Origin: Deltaproteobacteria bacterium
Lineage (GTDB): Bacteria; Desulfobacterota; Desulfobacteria; Desulfobacterales; Desulfosarcinaceae
Length of the DNA: 64,000 bases
Direction of reading: 5' to 3'
Assembly: GCA_021824175.1 (NCBI GenBank)
Contig: JAKALP010000003.1
Location: forward strand, 124,001-188,000
Part shown: positions 49,679 to 58,146 of the stretch, in pieces
Layout of the letters: every line of letters starts with the position of its first letter
How positions within the stretch are numbered: the stretch's first letter is position 1
Made by a program: the position numbers and the translations under genes
Notes under the pieces: generated by a model
Databases searched by the model: none
The model's input: only the letters and a program-made list of their open reading frames with translations
What the model was told of the DNA's origin: nothing

Positions 49679-49694
49679 AGCCATATTCTTCTTT

Positions 49695-49786
49695 AGGGGC
49701 AATGGTGCTGGGCACCCCGCGGTCTTCAAAACCGTCGGCCTCGTCTAAGCAACGAGGAGGAGGTTCGATTCCCCTTGCCCCCTCCA
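49695..49786 (+). tRNA. selC: tRNA with UCA anticodon: selC-like, but with U73 (candidate tRNA-Cys decoding UGA)
   Basis: Folded by hand. Acceptor GGGGCAA (49696-49702) pairs with TTGCCCC (49775-49781), extended by an A1-C72 mismatch to eight positions. D arm is GGTGC/GCACC. The anticodon stem GCGGT/ACCGT encloses CTTCAAA, giving anticodon TCA. A long variable arm CCTCG/CGAGG has a 9-base loop. The T arm has loop TTCGATT with a four-pair stem GG(A)GG:CCCC containing one bulged A. Encoded CCA is at 49784-49786, so the discriminator is T49783 (U73). Bacterial tRNA-Sec normally has G73; U73 is the main CysRS identity base. An extra 8/4-branched tRNA-Cys mimicking tRNA-Sec has been reported in deltaproteobacteria (Mukai et al. 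2017, from memory). selB starts 20 bases downstream. Confidence 0.9.
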
Positions 49787-49805
49787 TTATTCGCGAGGGC
49801 ACTGG

Positions 49806-51728
49806 ATGAATGCTGCCTATACCATCGGTGTCGCCGGTCATGTGGACCATGGCAAAACCACTCTGGTCAGAACCCTGACCGGTGTTGATACGGACCGCCG
49901 GGCCGAAGAGAAAGCCCGTGGGCTTTCCATCGAGGCCGGCGTGGCCGAATTGAAGCTGCCCGATGGCCGCGGCGCGGCCCTGATCGATGTGCCCGGCCAC
50001 ACTGATTTTCTGAAAAATACCATCCGGGGTTTGAACGGTATCGACATGGCTATTCTGGTGATCGCGGCGGACGATGGCGTCATGCCCCAAACCAGGGAGC
50101 ACCTGGAAATTTTAAAATTCTTTAAGGTAGCCGCGGCAATGGTGGTGTTGACCAAGATCGATCTGGTGGATGAGGAAACACTTGAATTGGCCGAGCTGGA
50201 AGTAAGCGAACTGCTCAACAGTACTCTTCTCCACAACGCCCCCATTTTCAAATTCACGCCGACCAAGCCGGAACTTTGCGCGGACATCCTAAAAGGAATC
50301 GATAGCGCCTTGGCCCGCCTGCCGGTTAAAAAAACCGATAGACCCTTGCGTCTCTGGATCGACCAGGTCAGAAGCATTGCCGGCCACGGTACGGTGGTCA
50401 GCGGCACCGTATCTTCCGGGAAAATTTGCTGCAATGACGAAATCGAACTTCTGCCCGCTGAAACCAAGATTCGCGTGCGATCACTGCAAATTCACGCTTG
50501 CTCGGTTGACCAAGCCGTGGCCGGTCAAAGGGTCGGCATCAATCTGCATCGGGTCCCTTTGGGCCAAGTGCTGCGCGGCATGAGCCTGTCGGCGCCTGGG
50601 GCCATTAGGCCGACCTATTTGCTCAATGCGCAAATCCGGGTTTTGCCGGGGGCCAAAAAAGGGATCAAAAACCGGCAGAAGGTCAAAGTCCACCTGGGCA
50701 CCTCCATGACCACCGCCATGATTGTTTTTATGAACGGCGATCGCCTTGATCCGGGGGATTGCGGCCTGGTTCAAATCCGATTGCTGAGACCAACGGCCGC
50801 CCAGCCCCAGGATGCGTTTGTGATATCCCTGCTGAACATCAACACGGTGATTGCGGGCGGCCTCGTGTTGGAGATCCCGCGCGAAAAATTCCGGATCGCT
50901 AAAACCCAATCCGTTCTTCCGTTGTTGACGGCACTTCAAAAAACAGATGCCGAAGCATATGTTGAGACTTTATTTGAGCATACCAGCGGCAGCCCGATCA
51001 CCGCAAAAAAACTTGCCGAAAAGACCGGCTGGCCGCCGGCGGTGTTCGAACGAACCATCAATTCCAAAGTACAAAAGGGGGAGTTGCTCTATCTTAAAGG
51101 CCATGGCGCCATCAAAAAGAGTCATCTGTCTACCCTTGAAAAGCAATTCAAGACGGTCATCGCGGAAGCATTCGTAAAAGACCCGCTGAAAAAAAATGTC
51201 GCTCTGTCCGAAGTAGCCGAACACCTGGATTGCCGTGTTGATGCTGCCTTGCTTGACTTCATCGCCGAGACGCTGTGCAAAAACGGCGTAATCGCCCGCC
51301 TGGACGGCGGCTATCGCCTGACCCGCAATGAGCCATCATTGGATGCGCGGCAAGAATCCCTGGTTTCCCATGTATTGGACTATATGCATGCTTCGGGACT
51401 GACACCCATCAATCCTAACTTTTTTTGGAAGCAGCACCCGTCGCGATACAGCCAGGCAAAAGCCGTCCGGCTGTTCAATTATTTGTATTCCCAAAAAAGA
51501 CTGATACGGCTGGACGACGGGCGTTTCTTATCCCTGCAAGCGCTTGCGGAGATCAAAAAGAGGGTGAGCCAGGCCATCATGGACAGAGGATTTATCTCTC
51601 TGTACGACTGCAAGAAACTATTCGGATATGGACGCACGGGTGGGGCTCATGTGCTGGACTATCTGAATCAAATCGGCTTCACCGTGCGCCAGGAAGACAA
51701 GCACTACTTGAAAAAGGACGGCTTTTGA
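49806..51728 (+). CDS. selB: Selenocysteine-type elongation factor SelB
   Basis: 640 residues. G-domain motifs GHVDHGKT (near 10), DVPGHTDF and TKID; switch region EEKARGLSIEAGVAEL. Domains II/III follow (GHGTVVSGTVSSG) and then about 280 residues of winged-helix repeats that in SelB bind the SECIS hairpin (SQAKAVRLFNYLYSQKRLIR). SelB brings an aminoacyl-tRNA to recoded UGA. It lies 20 bases after the UCA tRNA and overlaps cysS by one base, so the three are one unit. Sequence here is visibly richer in A/T wobble codons than the neighbours, which may indicate transfer; not computed. Confidence 0.94.
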   Translation: MNAAYTIGVAGHVDHGKTTLVRTLTGVDTDRRAEEKARGLSIEAGVAELKLPDGRGAALIDVPGHTDFLKNTIRGLNGIDMAILVIAADDGVMPQTREHLEILKFFKVAAAMVVLTKIDLVDEETLELAELEVSELLNSTLLHNAPIFKFTPTKPELCADILKGIDSALARLPVKKTDRPLRLWIDQVRSIAGHGTVVSGTVSSGKICCNDEIELLPAETKIRVRSLQIHACSVDQAVAGQRVGINLHRVPLGQVLRGMSLSAPGAIRPTYLLNAQIRVLPGAKKGIKNRQKVKVHLGTSMTTAMIVFMNGDRLDPGDCGLVQIRLLRPTAAQPQDAFVISLLNINTVIAGGLVLEIPREKFRIAKTQSVLPLLTALQKTDAEAYVETLFEHTSGSPITAKKLAEKTGWPPAVFERTINSKVQKGELLYLKGHGAIKKSHLSTLEKQFKTVIAEAFVKDPLKKNVALSEVAEHLDCRVDAALLDFIAETLCKNGVIARLDGGYRLTRNEPSLDARQESLVSHVLDYMHASGLTPINPNFFWKQHPSRYSQAKAVRLFNYLYSQKRLIRLDDGRFLSLQALAEIKKRVSQAIMDRGFISLYDCKKLFGYGRTGGAHVLDYLNQIGFTVRQEDKHYLKKDGF

Positions 51729-52984
51729 TGGCGATCCGCATCTTCGATACCCTTACCCGCGCCAAGAAGCCTTTCATCCCGATCGTTCCAGGCAAGGTGA
51801 GTATTTATGTGTGCGGCCCTACCGTATATGACGAACCCCATCCGGGCCACGCCCGCTCGGCGGTAATCTACGATGTCATCCGGCGCTATCTGACGGCCGC
51901 TGGATACTCGGTCACCTATGTGCGCAATGTCACGGATATCGATGATAAGATCATTGAAAAAGCGCGCGATCAAAACCGGAATTTCCAAAATATAAGCGCT
52001 CATTTCCTCCAGCGCTATCATCGGGCCATGGCGCGTCTGAACGTTCTGAGCCCCGACGCTGAACCCAGGGCCACTGATTTTATTCTTCCCATGCATGCTT
52101 TGATTTCAAGGTTGATCCAAGGCGGGCATGCTTACCAAGCCGGCGGCAATGTGTACTTTTCAGTAAAATCCTTCGGCGGCTACGGAAAATTATCGGGTCG
52201 CGCCATTTCAACACTATCCGAAGAAAACATCGTCCCACCTGAACCGAATAAAAAGCATCCCGCTGATTTTGCCCTATGGAAGGCAAGTCCATCGCAAGAG
52301 CCCTTCTGGCCCAGCCCCTGGGGGCCCGGCCGGCCTGGCTGGCACATTGAGTGCTCGGCCATGAGCACCGGATTGCTGAGCGAAGTTTTCGATATCCATG
52401 GCGGCGGGTCGGATTTGATCTTCCCCCATCATGAAAATGAAATCGCCCAGTCGGAAAGCATATCCGGGAAAAACCCCGCCAATCATTGGGTGCATAACGG
52501 ACTGGTCCATGTCAATGGCGCGAAAATGTCCAAGTCGTTGGCCAACAGTCCGACGCTCAATGAACTGCTGGATACTTACGCCCCGGAGATCGTGCGGCTG
52601 TTTTTACTTTCAAAGCGCTATGGGCGCCCCATGGAGTTCTCGCGCCATTCAATGCTCATGGCAGCCAGGAGCTTTGCCCGGCTGCAACGCTTTTTTTCGC
52701 GGTTTTCGGCGCCGGCCGCCGCGCCAAAAAAAACCGGAATGCGCCAAGGCAACTTATGGGAGCGATTTTGCGACGCCATGGATGATGACTTCAATTTTCC
52801 CATGGCGCTCTCCGTTGTATTCGAAGGGGTCAGGCGCATCAATCGGCAACTGGTGATGGATTCAAATCCATCTTCCATGGAAGATTTGGGTGTTCTGAAA
52901 ACGACCCTCTCCAACCTTGCCTTCATGTGCCGGGAGATACTTGGATTTAACTTTGAAAGGAGAAGAAAAGGAGAATCAACATGA
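51728..52984 (+). CDS. cysS: Cysteinyl-tRNA synthetase lacking the C-terminal anticodon-recognition region
   Basis: 418 residues. Zinc and catalytic motifs are complete: YVCGPTVYDEPHPGHAR (HIGH-type HPGH), WHIECSAMSTG, FPHHENEIAQSE and KMSKS at 266-270. E. coli CysRS has KMSKS at the same position but 461 residues, so about 43 C-terminal residues, the part that reads the GCA anticodon, are absent; the frame ends naturally in ATGA. Coupled to selB and the UCA tRNA, this enzyme could charge a tRNA with U73 irrespective of anticodon. An alternative is a non-translational role like the similarly short MshC ligase. The start ATG overlaps the selB stop. Confidence 0.92.
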   Translation: MAIRIFDTLTRAKKPFIPIVPGKVSIYVCGPTVYDEPHPGHARSAVIYDVIRRYLTAAGYSVTYVRNVTDIDDKIIEKARDQNRNFQNISAHFLQRYHRAMARLNVLSPDAEPRATDFILPMHALISRLIQGGHAYQAGGNVYFSVKSFGGYGKLSGRAISTLSEENIVPPEPNKKHPADFALWKASPSQEPFWPSPWGPGRPGWHIECSAMSTGLLSEVFDIHGGGSDLIFPHHENEIAQSESISGKNPANHWVHNGLVHVNGAKMSKSLANSPTLNELLDTYAPEIVRLFLLSKRYGRPMEFSRHSMLMAARSFARLQRFFSRFSAPAAAPKKTGMRQGNLWERFCDAMDDDFNFPMALSVVFEGVRRINRQLVMDSNPSSMEDLGVLKTTLSNLAFMCREILGFNFERRRKGEST

Positions 52985-54261
52985 GTGAAGACTATCGTTT
53001 GATGTGGAAGAATTTGGGCTTGAACCTCGAGGCCCATGACATGTTGCTGGGGGTTCTGGGCAACGCTTACAAGGATATTTATCTGAGCCAAAAGGAGCGG
53101 CCCGAGGGCATGGCCTATTTTGACTTTGTCATGAGCGAGGTCCACGGCCTGCGCATCAAGGAGCTGCTCGACGAAAAGGCCGCCGGCCGCAAGATCGTCG
53201 GCGCCTACTGCGTCTTTGTGCCCGAGGAGATCGTGCTGGCCGCCAACGCCACCTTGGTGGGATTGTGCTCGGGCGCTGATTTTGCCATTGAAGAGGTGGA
53301 AAAATTGCTGCCGCGCAACACCTGCGCCCTGATCAAATCCGCGTTCGGCTTCAAGCTGGGCAAGGTGTGCCCCTACCTGGAAAGCGCGGACATGATCGTG
53401 GGCGAAAACACCTGCGACGGCAAGAAGAAAGCCTATGAAACCCTGGGCCAACTGGTGAGCAATCTCTATGTCATGGATCTGCCCCAGGTCAAAACGCAAA
53501 ACGGCCGGGCCCTGTTGAAAGCGGAGTATTTTCAGTTCAAGGCGGCCGTGGAAAAGCTCACCGGCAAGGCCATCACCGCCGACTCATTGAAGGCCGCCAT
53601 CCAGACGGTCAATGCCAAGCGCAAGGCCATTCACCGTCTGTCGGCCCTGCGCCAGGCCGATCCCGCCCCCATCTCGGGCCTGGATGCGCTTTTGGCCAAC
53701 CAGGTGTTCTTCTACGACAACCCGGCGCGCTTTACCGCCTCGGTCAACAAAATCTGCGATGAACTGGAAAAACGAGTCGAGGAGAAAAAAGGCGCCTTCC
53801 CCGCCAGAACCCCGCGCCTGCTCATCTCCGGCTGCCCCCAGGCCGTGCCCAACTGGAAGCTGCCCTTTATCATCGAGACTTCAGGGGCCGTCATCGTGGG
53901 CGAGGAGTCGTGCGTGGGCGAGCGCGGCACCCGCAACCTGACCGCCGAAACAGGGAATACGGTTGAAACTATGATGGAGGCCATCGTGGATCGTTACTTT
54001 CAGGTGGATTGCGCCATCTTCACCCCCAACCCGGATCGCCTGGCCCACATCGAGCAGATGGCGGCCCAGTACAAAGCTGACGGCGTGATTCATTACGGCT
54101 TGCAGTTCTGCCAACCCTATCTAATGGAAGCGATTCCGGTGGAAAAGGCCCTGGAGAAGAAGAATATCCCCTGCCTGCGCATCGAGACCGACTACAGCAT
54201 GGAGGATGCGGGGCAGCTGAAGACCCGCATTGAAGCGTTCATCGAGCAGATTAAGGGATAA
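52981..54261 (+). CDS. 2-Hydroxyacyl-CoA dehydratase / double-cubane family protein, copy 1
   Basis: 426 residues of the HgdB/YjiM-like family. Cysteine positions in family context: VGAYCVFVPEE, NTCALIKSAFG, GKVCPYLE, GENTCDGKKKAYE, SGCPQAVPNWKLP, GEESCVGERG and YGLQFCQPY, enough for a double-cubane [8Fe-9S] or a [4Fe-4S] dehydratase site. Partner activase follows. ATG overlaps the cysS stop. Double-cubane proteins reduce small substrates at very low potential; the substrate here is unknown. Most likely a double-cubane protein rather than an alpha/beta dehydratase because no other dehydratase subunit is required by context. Confidence 0.88.
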   Translation: MSEDYRLMWKNLGLNLEAHDMLLGVLGNAYKDIYLSQKERPEGMAYFDFVMSEVHGLRIKELLDEKAAGRKIVGAYCVFVPEEIVLAANATLVGLCSGADFAIEEVEKLLPRNTCALIKSAFGFKLGKVCPYLESADMIVGENTCDGKKKAYETLGQLVSNLYVMDLPQVKTQNGRALLKAEYFQFKAAVEKLTGKAITADSLKAAIQTVNAKRKAIHRLSALRQADPAPISGLDALLANQVFFYDNPARFTASVNKICDELEKRVEEKKGAFPARTPRLLISGCPQAVPNWKLPFIIETSGAVIVGEESCVGERGTRNLTAETGNTVETMMEAIVDRYFQVDCAIFTPNPDRLAHIEQMAAQYKADGVIHYGLQFCQPYLMEAIPVEKALEKKNIPCLRIETDYSMEDAGQLKTRIEAFIEQIKG

Positions 54262-54398
54262 AGAAAATGCTCTTGCAAAGGCGCAAAGCTCGCCAAGGAA
54301 GCACACTCCTTGTGAATCCATCTTTGCGCTCTTAGCGCCTTGGCGAGAGAGTTAAAATTGATATTATTTTCGTGCAAGCAGCAGATTGGAAGTTTCAG
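54262..54398. repeat. Inverted GCGCAAAG / CTTTGCGC words between copy 1 and activase
   Basis: CTTGCAAAGGCGCAAAGCTC and CGCCAAGG on the left face CTTTGCGCTCTTAGCGCC and TTGGCGAGAG on the right, forming a long imperfect hairpin centred near 54310. CTTTGCGC...TTGGCGAGA words are widespread intergenic repeats. Confidence 0.6.
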
Positions 54399-55157
54399 AT
54401 GGCTCATCGTTTCGCCGGCATCGACATCGGCTCGCGCACCATCGAGCTGGTAGTGGTGAATCAATCGGGGCAAGCGATACATACCCTCAAGGCTGATACC
54501 GGTTTCGATCCCATGGCTGAGGCCAAACAGATGATCGGCGCGGTGGTCTATGAAGGCATCATGGCCACCGGTTACGGGCGTAACCTGTTCGAGATTGCCT
54601 TTGAGGCGCCGACCGTCACCGAAATCAAGGCTCACGCCCGGGGGGCGCGGGCCTTTTTTCCGGAAGCCCTCAATGTGCTGGACATCGGCGGCCAGGACAG
54701 CAAGGCCATCGCGCTGTCTGACAACGGCAAGGTGAAGAAGTTTGAAATGAACGACCGTTGCGCTGCCGGCACCGGCAAGTTCCTGGAGATCATGGCCCGC
54801 ACGCTGGGCTACGCCATCGAGCAGTTCGGCAACGAAGCCCTGCTGGCCGAACAGGAAACCACCATTTCCAGCATGTGCACGGTTTTCGCCGAATCCGAAG
54901 TCACCTCCCTCATCGCCAAAGGCCAGGACCGCCGGGAGATCGCCCTGGGCGTGCACGCCAGCGTCATGCGCCGGGTGGCAGCCATGCTCCAGCGCGTCGC
55001 GCCGGAGGGAGATATTGTCTTTACCGGCGGTGTGGCCAACAACGCCTGCCTGCGCGCCCTGCTGGCCCAAAAGCTGGGGCGCCGGATTCTATATGCGCCC
55101 CAGGCCCAGTTTGCAGGCGCCTTGGGTGCGGCATTGCTGGCGCTGGAGGCGGCCTAA
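54399..55157 (+). CDS. ATP-dependent activase of 2-hydroxyacyl-CoA dehydratase / double-cubane proteins
   Basis: 252 residues of the HgdC/YjiL family (ASKHA ATPase fold). Phosphate-binding GIDIGSRTIELVVV at the start, DIGGQDSKAIALSDNG, and GGVANNACLRALLAQKLG near the end; the bridging [4Fe-4S] cysteines are in MNDRCAAGTGKFLE and SSMCTVFAESE. Such activases transfer an electron with ATP hydrolysis to their dehydratase or double-cubane partner. Start at ATG 54399 after GGAAG; a GTG at 54372 would add nine residues. Sits between two possible partners. Confidence 0.93.
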   Translation: MAHRFAGIDIGSRTIELVVVNQSGQAIHTLKADTGFDPMAEAKQMIGAVVYEGIMATGYGRNLFEIAFEAPTVTEIKAHARGARAFFPEALNVLDIGGQDSKAIALSDNGKVKKFEMNDRCAAGTGKFLEIMARTLGYAIEQFGNEALLAEQETTISSMCTVFAESEVTSLIAKGQDRREIALGVHASVMRRVAAMLQRVAPEGDIVFTGGVANNACLRALLAQKLGRRILYAPQAQFAGALGAALLALEAA

Positions 55158-55159
55158 CG

Positions 55160-55318
55160 GAGTTTACCCGTTTGCCCGTTTGCCCGTTCGCCCGTTCGCC
55201 CGTTGGGCCATTGCTCCCCGCGATCTGGCCCAAAGCACAGACTACCGCGGTTTGTGCTCTTTCTCACGTATTAACGGGCGCACGGGCCAACGGGTTCACA
55301 CGCAAACGATTAGATTGG
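55160..55318. repeat. Inverted CCCGTTTGCCCG / CGGGCCAACGGG array
   Basis: Left side repeats CCCGTTTGCCCG and CCCGTTCGCCCG five times; the right side carries AACGGGCGCACGGGCC and AACGGG copies in reverse complement. The same words recur at 61404-61508 and around 44881. Located in an operon spacer. Confidence 0.7.
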
Positions 55319-55326
55319 AGAAAATA

Positions 55327-56481
55327 ATGTTGACGATACCGCCTCTGATGGATGACGGCTTTGCCGGCGAGCCGGCCAAGCGGGTATTGCAATACATGCA
55401 GGCCCACAAAGCCAAGGGCGATCCCATTGTCGGGATTTACTGTGGCTATGCGCCCATCGAACTGATTCAGGCCATGGGTCTTGTGCCCGCGGTGCTGTGC
55501 GCATTTTCCAAGGTGCCCATCCCAGCGGCTGAAACCGTGCTGCCGGCCAACCTCTGCCCACTGATCAAATCGAGTTTCGGGTTCATCATCGAAGGCACCT
55601 GCCCCTTTTACGCCATGTCCCAGGCGGTCATCGCCGAGACCACCTGTGATGGCAAGAAGAAGATGTTCGAGCTGATCGCCGACATCAAACCCACCCATGT
55701 CATGGATCTGCCCCAGGTGCCGGATCAGCGCGAGGCCCTGCCCAACTGGAAGCAGATGATCCTGAGACTGCAGGAATTTCTGGAGAAGACTTTTGATCGA
55801 AAGGCGGACGAAAACAAAATCGAGGCCTCGCTGCAAGCCGCCAACCGCAGGAACGCCTTGATGCAGAAAATCTTTGACTATGCCGCGTTGCGGCCTTCGG
55901 CCCTGCACTGGTCCGAGATGTACGATGTGGGGTTTTTGGCCCTGCCCGCCACCGGGGCAGAGATGGCACCCAGGCTGGAAGCTCTGCTGGAGCGGCTGGA
56001 AAAGCGGGTCCGGGACGGTTTGCACTTCGGCCGGCCCGACGCGCCCAGGGTGCTGGTCACCGGCTGTCCGGTGGGCGGTGATGCTACGAAAATCTTCAAG
56101 GTGATCGAGGCCGCCGGCGGGGCGGTAGTGGCGCCGGATGCCTGCACCGGCATGAAGGCATTTGCCGGGACCTTTCAGGAAAACAGCGGTGATCCCATCG
56201 GCGCCATGGCCGAGCGGTATCTAAAAATCCCATGCGCCTGCATGACCCCCAACGAGCGGCGCCTGACGGATTTGTCGATCATGATCGATCGATTTAAGCC
56301 TGACGCGGTGATCGACGTGGTGCTGCAGGCCTGCCATGCTTATAATATAGAATCGCACAAGGTGGGCCGACATGTTCAGGAGGCCCATGGGCTGCCGTTT
56401 CTGAAGGTGGAGATTGATTATTCGGAGGGCGATATCGGTCAACTGCGCACGCGGGTCGAAGCACTGTTTGAAAGCATATAA
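55327..56481 (+). CDS. 2-Hydroxyacyl-CoA dehydratase / double-cubane family protein, copy 2
   Basis: 384 residues, homologous to copy 1: IYCGYAPIELI, LPANLCPLIKSSFGF, EGTCPFYAM, AETTCDGKKKMFELI, VMDLPQVPDQRE, TGCPVGGDATK, PDACTGMKAF and VVLQACHAYNIESHKV. Ends in EIDYSEGDIGQLRTRVEALF like the family. Start ATG 55327 after GGAG. selD starts five bases after its stop, so it is co-transcribed with the selenium genes. Confidence 0.9.
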   Translation: MLTIPPLMDDGFAGEPAKRVLQYMQAHKAKGDPIVGIYCGYAPIELIQAMGLVPAVLCAFSKVPIPAAETVLPANLCPLIKSSFGFIIEGTCPFYAMSQAVIAETTCDGKKKMFELIADIKPTHVMDLPQVPDQREALPNWKQMILRLQEFLEKTFDRKADENKIEASLQAANRRNALMQKIFDYAALRPSALHWSEMYDVGFLALPATGAEMAPRLEALLERLEKRVRDGLHFGRPDAPRVLVTGCPVGGDATKIFKVIEAAGGAVVAPDACTGMKAFAGTFQENSGDPIGAMAERYLKIPCACMTPNERRLTDLSIMIDRFKPDAVIDVVLQACHAYNIESHKVGRHVQEAHGLPFLKVEIDYSEGDIGQLRTRVEALFESI

Positions 56482-56485
56482 GGTT

Positions 56486-57535
56486 ATGCCCGAGGATAGG
56501 AAAATACGCCTGACTGCCACGGTCAGCGGCGCCGGTTGAGCCTCCAAACTGGCTCCGGGGGACCTGGACAAGGCGCTGTGCGGCCTGATAATCCCTGCCG
56601 ATGAGAATGTGCTGGTGGGTTTGGATCGGGCCGACGACGCGGGTGTGTATAAAATCACCGATGATCTGGCGCTGATTCAGACCGTGGATTTTTTCACTCC
56701 CATCGTTGATGATCCCTATTGGTTCGGCCGCATCGCCGCCGCCAACGCGTTGAGCGATGTCTATGCCATGGGCGGCATTCCCAAAACCGCCATGAACATA
56801 GTGGCTTTCCCTGCCCAAACTATGGATTTGGCGGTTCTGCGCCAGATCATTCAAGGTGGGCTGGATGCCTTGACCGAAGCCGACGCCGTGTTGGTCGGCG
56901 GCCACAGCATCGAGGACAAAGAGCTCAAATACGGTCTGTCGATAACCGGCGTCATTCATCCAGCGCGGGTTTTGACCAAGAAGCATCTGCAACCCGGCGA
57001 CCGGCTGATTCTGACCAAACCGCTGGGTAGCGGCATCGTCAATACCGCCGTCAAGGCCGAAATGGCGCCTGCGGCCCTGGTCGAACGGGTGACCCGTCTG
57101 ATGGCCGCGCTCAACCGCACGGCGGCCGAAGTCATGCAACGCTTCAAAGTCCATGCCTGCACCGATATCACCGGGTTCGGTTTGCTGGGCCACCTGTCCG
57201 AGATGGTGGCCGGATCGGGCCGGGGGGTGCGGCTCTTTTCCACCCAAATACCGATCATCGCCGAGTCCGTGGAGTATGCCGCCATGGGTTTGATCCCGGC
57301 TGGCGCCTATAAAAACAGAGAGTTCCGGCAGGCCATGATCACCTTTGAGGCGTCGGTGGCGCGGGTGCTGCAGGACATCTTCTTCGATCCTCAGACCTCG
57401 GGTGGCCTGCTAATTAGCGTGGCCGCCGGCCAGGCCGAAGAAATATTAAGCGCTCTTAAATCCGAGGGCCTGGAGGATGCGGCGCTGATTGGAGAAGTAA
57501 TGGAAGCGCCCGAAGAAAAGATTCTGGTGAAATAA
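56486..57535 (+). CDS. selD: Selenide, water dikinase SelD with in-frame UGA at the active site
   Basis: 349 residues when TGA at 56537-56539 (codon 18) is read through: MPEDRKIRLTATVSGAG-U-ASKLAPGDLDK. Residue 18 is the catalytic Cys/Sec of SelD, followed by the conserved Lys. The rest is canonical: LIQTVDFFTPIVDDPYWFGR, ANALSDVYAMGG, GGHSIEDKELKYG, TKPLGSG and DPQTSGGLL. SelD makes selenophosphate from selenide and ATP. Start ATG 56486 after AAGG, five bases past the preceding stop. An automatic call would begin downstream of the TGA (56609) and miss the active site. Whether UGA is read as Sec or, through the nearby U73 tRNA, as Cys is open. Confidence 0.93.
56549..56567 (+). promoter_or_regulatory. 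SECIS-like hairpin after the selD UGA
   Basis: CTGGCTCC (56549-56556) can pair with GGACCTGG (56560-56567) in eight positions including one C-C mismatch and two G-T wobbles, around a GGG loop. It begins nine bases after the UGA, the distance range of bacterial SECIS elements. The fold was made by hand. Confidence 0.45.
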
Positions 57536-57549
57536 ATAGGAGAGCCCTT

Positions 57550-58146
57550 ATGAAAGAAATTGATGCCCGTGGATTGGCGTGTCCAGCGCCTGTTCTTCAA
57601 ACCAAAGCCGCCCTGCGGGAAGAGAGTCCAGGCCAGGTGCAGGTGGTGGTGGACAACAGCGCCGCCCAGCAGAATGTGCAGCGTTTTCTGGAGTCCCAGG
57701 GATTTGAAACCACCCTGGAACAAAAGGGCGCCGATTTTTTAGTGATCGGACGCTGTGCGGCGGCCCCGGCCGAGCGGAGCCGACCGGCCGCGGCGCCGGA
57801 GACGGGGAGCCAGAAAATTCTCATCCTGTGCGCCACCGACCGCATGGGTTATGGCGATGACGAGCTGGGGTTGAAGCTGATGGTCAACTACCTGCGCACC
57901 CTCAAGGAGATGGGACCCGACCTGTGGCGGCTGATTTTCGTCAACAACGGCGTCAAGCTCGCCATCGATGGTTCGGAAGTCTTGCCGGACCTGCAGGGCT
58001 ATGAGCAGGCGGGGCTGAAGATCCTGGTGTGCGGCACCTGTCTGAACCACTTCAATTTATTGGCGCGCAAGCAGGTGGGCGAAACCACCAACATGCTCGA
58101 CATCGTCACGGCCATGCAGCTGGCGGACAAGGTGATTTCTCTTTAG
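57550..58146 (+). CDS. yedF: YedF-like selenium metabolism protein (TusA + DsrE domains)
   Basis: 198 residues. The N-terminal TusA-like domain (1-70) has the redox motif DARGLACPAPVL, with Cys11. The C-terminal DsrE-like domain (about 88-198) contains ILCATDRMGYGDDELG and CGTCLNHFNLL. This fusion co-occurs with SelD in selenium-using bacteria and is thought to handle selenide. Starts 14 bases after selD with AGGAGAG. Probably last of the operon that begins at the UCA tRNA. Confidence 0.93.
   Translation: MKEIDARGLACPAPVLQTKAALREESPGQVQVVVDNSAAQQNVQRFLESQGFETTLEQKGADFLVIGRCAAAPAERSRPAAAPETGSQKILILCATDRMGYGDDELGLKLMVNYLRTLKEMGPDLWRLIFVNNGVKLAIDGSEVLPDLQGYEQAGLKILVCGTCLNHFNLLARKQVGETTNMLDIVTAMQLADKVISL

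Follow-up and report, generated by a model that had tools for sequence, protein, structure and literature searches.

What amino acid would be brought to UGA by a tRNA that resembles the selenocysteine (Sec) tRNA in its UCA anticodon and long variable arm, ends in U73, and is encoded directly before genes for a SelB-type elongation factor and an unusually short cysteinyl-tRNA synthetase (CysRS)? The genes in question lie within a window of 64,000 nucleotides (positions 124,001 to 188,000 of contig JAKALP010000003.1, forward strand) of GenBank assembly GCA_021824175.1, from a deltaproteobacterium of the sulfate-reducing type in the family Desulfosarcinaceae (order Desulfobacterales). The assembly comprises 6.07 Mb in 61 contigs and is 99.5% complete, with 3.4% contamination; below it is labelled G000, with relatives and loci given as G and L numbers. 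Judging from sequence, the locus is very likely a selC*-selB*-cysS* cassette, and we hold with considerable confidence the fuller reading, in which it would give cysteine at UGA codons marked by a Sec insertion sequence (SECIS), beside an intact Sec pathway.

The tRNA (49695-49786, + strand; 92 nucleotides including the encoded CCA) is called as tRNA-Sec(tca) by ARAGORN, at 49696-49782, and matches the Rfam tRNA-Sec model RF01852 at 49696-49781 (52.2 bits, cut-off 47; E 1.2e-7). Its anticodon, TCA, occupies 49726-49728, the discriminator is T49783 (U73), CCA lies at 49784-49786, and the variable arm is long. The molecule can be parsed into an 8-bp acceptor stem, a 5-bp D-stem with a 3-nucleotide loop, and a 4-bp T-stem interrupted by a bulged A (GG(A)GG). 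G73 and a 6-bp D-stem with a 4-nucleotide loop, both features of canonical tRNA-Sec, are absent; the 6-bp D-stem with its loop of four bases is what SelA reads (PMC7609411; this and the other articles cited by PubMed Central number are represented here by excerpts). Plain RNA folding of 49690-49790 gives six acceptor pairs, with a z of -2.00 and 6 of 200 shuffled sequences folding as well, and the 8/4 branch is read from comparison with relatives, not from this fold. A further 25 tRNAs of the same design occur in 24 other genomes, each directly before a gene of the SelB* type, and because of them the pattern of tRNA plus SelB* goes beyond chance. An earlier reading made from the sequence alone (hereafter the sequence-only reading) had described the anticodon, long variable arm, T discriminator and encoded CCA, and had referred to a reported tRNA-Cys that mimics tRNA-Sec, with an 8/4 branch and, in one variant, a bulge; the first are as it stated, and comparison with relatives gives the window tRNA such a branch and bulge.

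All 26 parsed tRNAs have U73, and 25 have the 5-bp D-stem with a loop of 3 nucleotides; 25 carry the anticodon UCA, and the remaining one (L157, of genome G258) carries GCA. Acceptor pairs 1:72, 2:71, 4:69 and 6:67 vary yet stay paired, except for one A.C in the window, and the 8-bp acceptor stem is therefore real. A T.T stands at 7:66 in the tRNA of L151. The window's exception, which the sequence-only reading did not record, is a mismatch at 1:72 (A49695.C49782), the other seven acceptor pairs being intact. At this position the 26 tRNAs have A:U in 17 cases, G:C in 8, and A.C only here; the mismatch is either genuine or the product of an error in sequencing. The window tRNA does not have the A1:U72 pair that defines the Desulfobacterales form, and, with eight members carrying G:C, A1:U72 marks one form of the cassette, not the whole family. 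No tRNA was found beside selB* in three of the 28 carriers described below: the contig of G005 begins inside selB*, that of G207 begins 171 bases upstream of it, and in G117 none was found.

Closely spaced after the tRNA, 19 bases past its CCA (the sequence-only reading had the spacing close, which it is, and counted 20, which it is not), begins selB* (49806-51728, + strand). It encodes a second SelB of 640 amino acids (TIGR00475, 294.9 bits, cut-off 242.25), with a GTPase domain, the SelB beta-barrel, and one C-terminal winged helix at the Pfam cut-off (23.2 bits). A tree built from 26 SelB* and 23 canonical SelB sequences, from which three partial SelB* (L136, L152 and L156) were omitted, splits the two into separate groups with support of 100/100. 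They differ as well in the pocket that holds Sec. In SelB-type factors this pocket consists of an aromatic residue (Tyr in bacteria), an Asp, an Arg (His in eukaryotes) and a further Arg (PMC5059743, with additional background in PMC4150793), and the aromatic residue has been proposed to act as a lid that shields Sec from oxidation (PMC3037878). The canonical signature, in E. coli numbering, is Tyr/Phe42, Asp180, Arg181 and Arg236; the window SelB* retains Asp180 and Arg236 and has Val in place of Tyr42 and Gln in place of Arg181.

These changes extend to the wider family. When 29 SelB* were aligned with 23 canonical SelB of the order, position 42 was found to be Phe in every canonical protein, and in SelB* to be Val (12), Ile (13), Phe (1) or a gap (3), i.e., Val or Ile in 25 of the 26 that are readable. 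Position 181 is likewise Arg in all 23 canonical proteins; the SelB* have Gln (20), Arg (4), Glu (2), or Gly, His or Lys (1 each). Asp180 and Arg236 are present in all 52 proteins (29/29 SelB*). The sole SelB* with both Phe42 and Arg181 (L157) adjoins the tRNA with the GCA anticodon. The loss of a lid and of one positive charge would fit a neutral thiol as cargo, that is, a carrier of Cys.

The third gene, cysS* (51728-52984, + strand), shares one base of its ATG with the stop codon of selB* (TGATG). Its product, CysRS*, has 418 amino acids, 43 fewer than the 461-residue chain of 1li5, and residues 1-382 align with solved CysRS. The HPGH motif, KMSKS (at residue 266) and metal-site Cys/His/Glu motifs, which we take to be zinc ligands, are all in place, and Pfam finds the tRNA-synt_1e catalytic domain and DALR_2. 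The anticodon-binding domain, CysS_C, was found in none of three CysRS* (those of the window, G153 and G117) and in each of three ordinary CysRS tested. The overlap with selB, the shortfall of about 43 residues, KMSKS and the missing anticodon-binding domain had all been claimed from the sequence, and all of them stand. Charging in vivo is said to have been confirmed (PMC7609411); the excerpts of PMC8762117, PMC8318568 and PMC11431864 contain nothing on CysRS*.

The trio coexists with ordinary machinery. Elsewhere in the same genome are an ordinary selC with G73 (C32:147833-147926), a canonical selB (C31:6468-8363; 32% identity to selB*), selA, and a full-length housekeeping CysRS (C43:2327-3460; 39% identity to CysRS*). 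This last enzyme passes the cysS model TIGR00435, and its best bit score is to PRK14536, below that model's cut-off. The sequence-only reading had suggested looking for a second selC with G73 and for selA, and both turned up; it had also asked whether a corrected fold would give G73 and whether CysRS* might be the only CysRS, and the answers are U73 and the enzyme on C43. A further CysRS-like frame (L020, G000:C1:12623-13771; open frame of 773 amino acids, 30% identity) was observed as well, and frames of this sort (759-1172 amino acids, 31-38% identity) occur in 22 of 27 relatives.

An arrangement of this kind is already published, and the window's cassette appears to be a further genomic case of it. 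The selC*-selB*-cysS* trio of Desulfobacterales (Mukai 2017, through the reviews PMC7609411 and PMC9437257) is reported to insert Cys at UGA, and a role when selenium is scarce has been posited (PMC9437257). The window shares with it the order tRNA-selB*-cysS*, the UCA anticodon, U73, the 8/4 branch, the bulged A, a CysRS* lacking the anticodon-binding domain, and an ordinary Sec system alongside (PMC7609411, PMC9437257, PMC11415595); it differs in having A1.C72 where the reported form has A1:U72. The review excerpts mention neither the change in the SelB* pocket nor the link to a class of housekeeping CysRS described below, but the primary papers may differ, so neither is claimed as unpublished. 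The reading of the locus as recoding UGA to Cys, which the sequence-only reading had advanced, gains support from these reviews (PMC7609411, PMC9437257), from the loss of CysS_C, and from the SelB* pocket. What the case adds is another cell with one codon, two possible amino acids, and two separate machineries.

Three other systems invite comparison. The first is a tRNA of Desulfotomaculum nigrificans, reportedly given the name tRNA-ReC by Vargas-Rodriguez et al. in 2018. It too is a tRNA-Cys resembling tRNA-Sec, delivered by SelB and placing Cys at UGA, but its anticodon is GCA, and the account excerpted from PMC11415595 mentions neither a dedicated CysRS nor a second SelB. The second is the archaeal aSelBL (MM1309), also a SelB relative that handles Cys-tRNA; it reportedly keeps the lid and pocket residues and is without a domain to bind SECIS or SECIS-binding protein, whereas SelB* has a changed lid and one changed pocket Arg and keeps a C-terminus of SelB length (PMC3037878, PMC4329189). 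The third, the canonical bacterial selC/selA/selB system, has the SelB family, the UCA anticodon and the long variable arm in common with the cassette; it differs in G73, in the route through seryl-tRNA synthetase (SerRS) and SelA, and in an intact Sec pocket, and it is found elsewhere in the window's own genome.

The cassette might then work as follows. CysRS*, having no anticodon-binding domain, would charge the UCA tRNA with Cys by recognizing U73 and the 8-bp acceptor stem, ignoring the anticodon. SelB* would deliver the Cys-tRNA to SECIS-marked UGA codons, and selenoproteins would also be made in Cys forms while the Sec pathway stays intact. The most likely use of such a system is as a backup under selenium shortage. 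That Cys is inserted in this manner is likely, in view of the reviews and the anatomy of the locus. The dedicated CysRS* would be retained where the housekeeping CysRS is of a divergent type, here called type B; elsewhere an ordinary type A enzyme presumably charges the same tRNA.

The last proposal comes from searching 291 genomes of the order with SelB*, where a match of at least 375 bits was taken as SelB* (the next match has 344). SelB* was found in 28 genomes, including the window's own. All 28 have a match to selA (in G249, split across two contigs); at the threshold applied, the matches listed for G243 and G005 include no canonical SelB. Canonical selC, at 74-77 bits, is present in 19 of the 27 relatives. 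For G189, G243, G153, G128 and G258, 105 of 408-1158 selC candidates were scored each, and none was seen in G242, G048 and G097 (74-86% complete), where all candidates were scored. One relative (G215, at L139) has tandem selC*-selB* units, the second SelB* match being split over two frames.

The gene cysS* was found in only three of the 28 genomes (the window's own, G153 and G117), always beside selB*. Housekeeping CysRS were sorted into type A (about 44-52% identical to CysRS*) and type B (about 37-40%), labels of our own. Leaving aside G048, which has no CysRS match, 27 SelB* genomes have a readable CysRS, 22 of type A (457-492 amino acids) and five of type B (G000, G153, G117, G127 and G010). 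G110 was typed A by identity alone, one of its copies (L253) having been dropped from the tree and the other (L187) grouping with CysRS of Chloroflexota; it is also the only type-A carrier with two type-A enzymes among the matches listed. All three cysS* carriers have the divergent type B, so that cysS* occurs in 3/5 type-B and 0/22 type-A genomes (Fisher p 0.0034, shared ancestry uncorrected). The published account holds that A1:U72 cannot be recognized by ordinary CysRS and hence calls for cysS* (PMC7609411). The survey, however, found A1:U72 in 13 type-A genomes (14 tRNAs) with no cysS* found, so A1:U72 alone does not demand cysS*. That account leaves most carriers unexplained, and the type of housekeeping CysRS appears to do better. 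With the survey, two questions become testable: what makes a dedicated CysRS necessary in some carriers and not in others and, from the pockets, which residues convert a Sec elongation factor into one for Cys.

A search with CysRS* over 389 genomes of the order gave only G153 above 437 bits among the matches listed; the 25 next-best matches, when fetched, had 470-487 amino acids, and one match, in G304 (L257), reaches the end of its contig. This leaves room for a distant cysS* elsewhere in the order. A broader scan of genome contigs yielded at least 80 loci, which served only as background for trees: as further cysS* they were rejected, with frames of 447-621 amino acids and none short like CysRS*. 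One of them (L045) has a SelB-type match above 100 bits in its flanks.

Two CysRS trees place CysRS* as one clade inside the type A enzymes of the order. The first kept 46 of 80 background loci (the duplicates or fragments L169, L190, L252, L253 and L257 were omitted) and gave support by the Shimodaira-Hasegawa-like approximate likelihood ratio test (SH-aLRT) of 99 for the CysRS* clade and 97 for the group enclosing it; the second, of 44 rows, gave 100/98 and 98/93. In these trees the CysRS of a named Desulfosarcina clusters with members of the window's family. SelB* follows other lines: that of the window clusters (100/99) with those of two genomes outside its family, G153 and G162, and apart from those of its family members G189 and G243. 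Moreover, five genomes of the same genus have one SelB each, of canonical score, and a sixth (G256) has no match. Because of this grouping across families and the canonical-score SelB of the congeners, the sequences suggest lateral transfer. A tentative history, one that we consider possible and somewhat short of probable, would run as follows: a swap to type B left the old type A CysRS, minus its anticodon-binding domain, as the charger of selC*; elsewhere type A charges selC*; and in SelB* the loss of the lid and one Arg shifted the factor from Sec to Cys. The parts that would deserve a test at the bench are the salvaging of CysRS* from an older enzyme and the re-tuning of the SelB* pocket.

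The cassette opens a single tight run of genes on the + strand that extends through yedF. The end of cysS*, with its stop codon, overlaps by four bases (ATGA) the start of a double-cubane-cluster anaerobic reductase (HGD-D) gene (52981-54261; NF040772, 474.5 bits), which is followed by its activase, of the BadF/BadG type (54372-55157, start uncertain; TIGR00241, 222.6 bits), and a second double-cubane reductase (55327-56481, 384 amino acids from the ATG at 55327; NF040772, 441.3 bits, a score obtained on a longer frame starting at 55168). Then come selD (56486-57535), whose codon 18 (56537-56539) is an in-frame TGA and so a candidate site for Cys or Sec, and yedF, for a TusA-DsrE selenium metabolism protein (57550-58146; TIGR03527, 213.8 bits). 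The stretches compared around 27 other selB* loci reach 20 kb at the most, and many contigs are shorter; nine of these loci have a reductase gene 74-83% identical to the first one here, downstream of selB* in 8, and five have selD and/or yedF. One TGA is found in each of 32 selD matches across all 28 cassette genomes, and one in all 89 matches from a baseline of 80 genomes, 79 of which have selD and one of which has no match; the TGA was assigned to the catalytic codon for the window only. Because of this prevalence, it seems that SelD, an enzyme for making Sec, itself needs a UGA to be read. The scan of the window for other single-TGA frames was insensitive, missing the known selD. A second selD holding a TGA is present in the genome (G000:C51:42445-43365), and G153, G127 and G010, i.e., the other type-B carriers except G117, likewise have two.

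Several observations weigh against the function and the history proposed here. The A1.C72 mismatch may weaken the acceptor stem or be an assembly error, and characterization of CysRS* is said to be missing (PMC11415595). Arg181 is kept by 4 of the 29 SelB*, and the solved SelB 4zu9 has, by alignment, Ser at 181 with Phe at 42; Arg181 is therefore not universal in canonical SelB, and the lid is the firmer mark. Contigs end inside selB* in G249 and G097 (type A) and in G127 (type B), so the absence of cysS* from the first two comes solely from the search of whole assemblies. These two type-A contigs and the lack of Arg181 in 4zu9 weaken the view of CysRS* as a retired housekeeping enzyme and of SelB* as a re-tuned factor. 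The counts of 3/5 and 0/22 do not represent three independent events, since the genomes are related by descent and the CysRS* sequences form a single clade, and G010 has a type B enzyme without cysS*. Branches in the CysRS trees are long, and an approximately unbiased (AU) test on the second set of rows left standing a topology that unites CysRS* with type B (p 0.309). Also, selD was rejected as a special target of the cassette, as its TGA occurs with or without one and shows no association, and plain folding after the UGA of the window's selD found no SECIS (z 0.02, no better than shuffles).

Perhaps the locus is a decaying relic, the A.C at 1:72 marking a function already lost and the genes persisting only because of their own recency. 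That the mismatch is unique among 26 tRNAs speaks for this, as do the seemingly decaying cassettes seen within one family: G117 (L147/L251) has CysRS*, a SelB* match whose first residue, 38, lies beyond the P-loop, and no tRNA that could be found, and G010 (L143) has SelB* and a tRNA with a C at the T-stem position adjoining the loop, and no cysS*. In the window, however, the frames are intact, the catalytic motifs and tight overlaps are kept, and so are the other tRNA stems and U73, which makes decay unlikely. It is still less likely that the trio acts outside selenoproteins, for instance as a guard of Cys-tRNA or to read UGA in one dedicated gene. An archaeal SelB-like protein does bind Cys-tRNA-Cys and has been proposed as a guardian (PMC4329189), and the reductase gene recurs near selB*, but SelB* matches, at the cut-off, the C-terminal winged helix of SelB, and the reductase frame in the window contains no UGA. 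Finally, the tRNA could be another, divergent tRNA-Sec served by a SelB of its own, which SerRS would load with serine for SelA to turn into Sec. This hardly seems credible in spite of the Rfam and ARAGORN calls, the long variable arm, the SelB neighbor and the presence of selA, given U73 in place of G73, the 5-bp D-stem with its 3-nucleotide loop, the 12-bp branch, the linked CysRS* and the altered Sec pocket of SelB*.

The genes just upstream may be worth recording. Between 45572 and 49610 are encoded a protein with weak likeness to Fe-S_biosyn (HesB), below the Pfam cut-off, a C-GCAxxG-C-C protein, and the alpha subunit of formate dehydrogenase. These are families whose members are frequently selenoproteins, and the name of the model matched by one of them itself contains "(seleno)protein"; the three frames here are open, with sense codons only.

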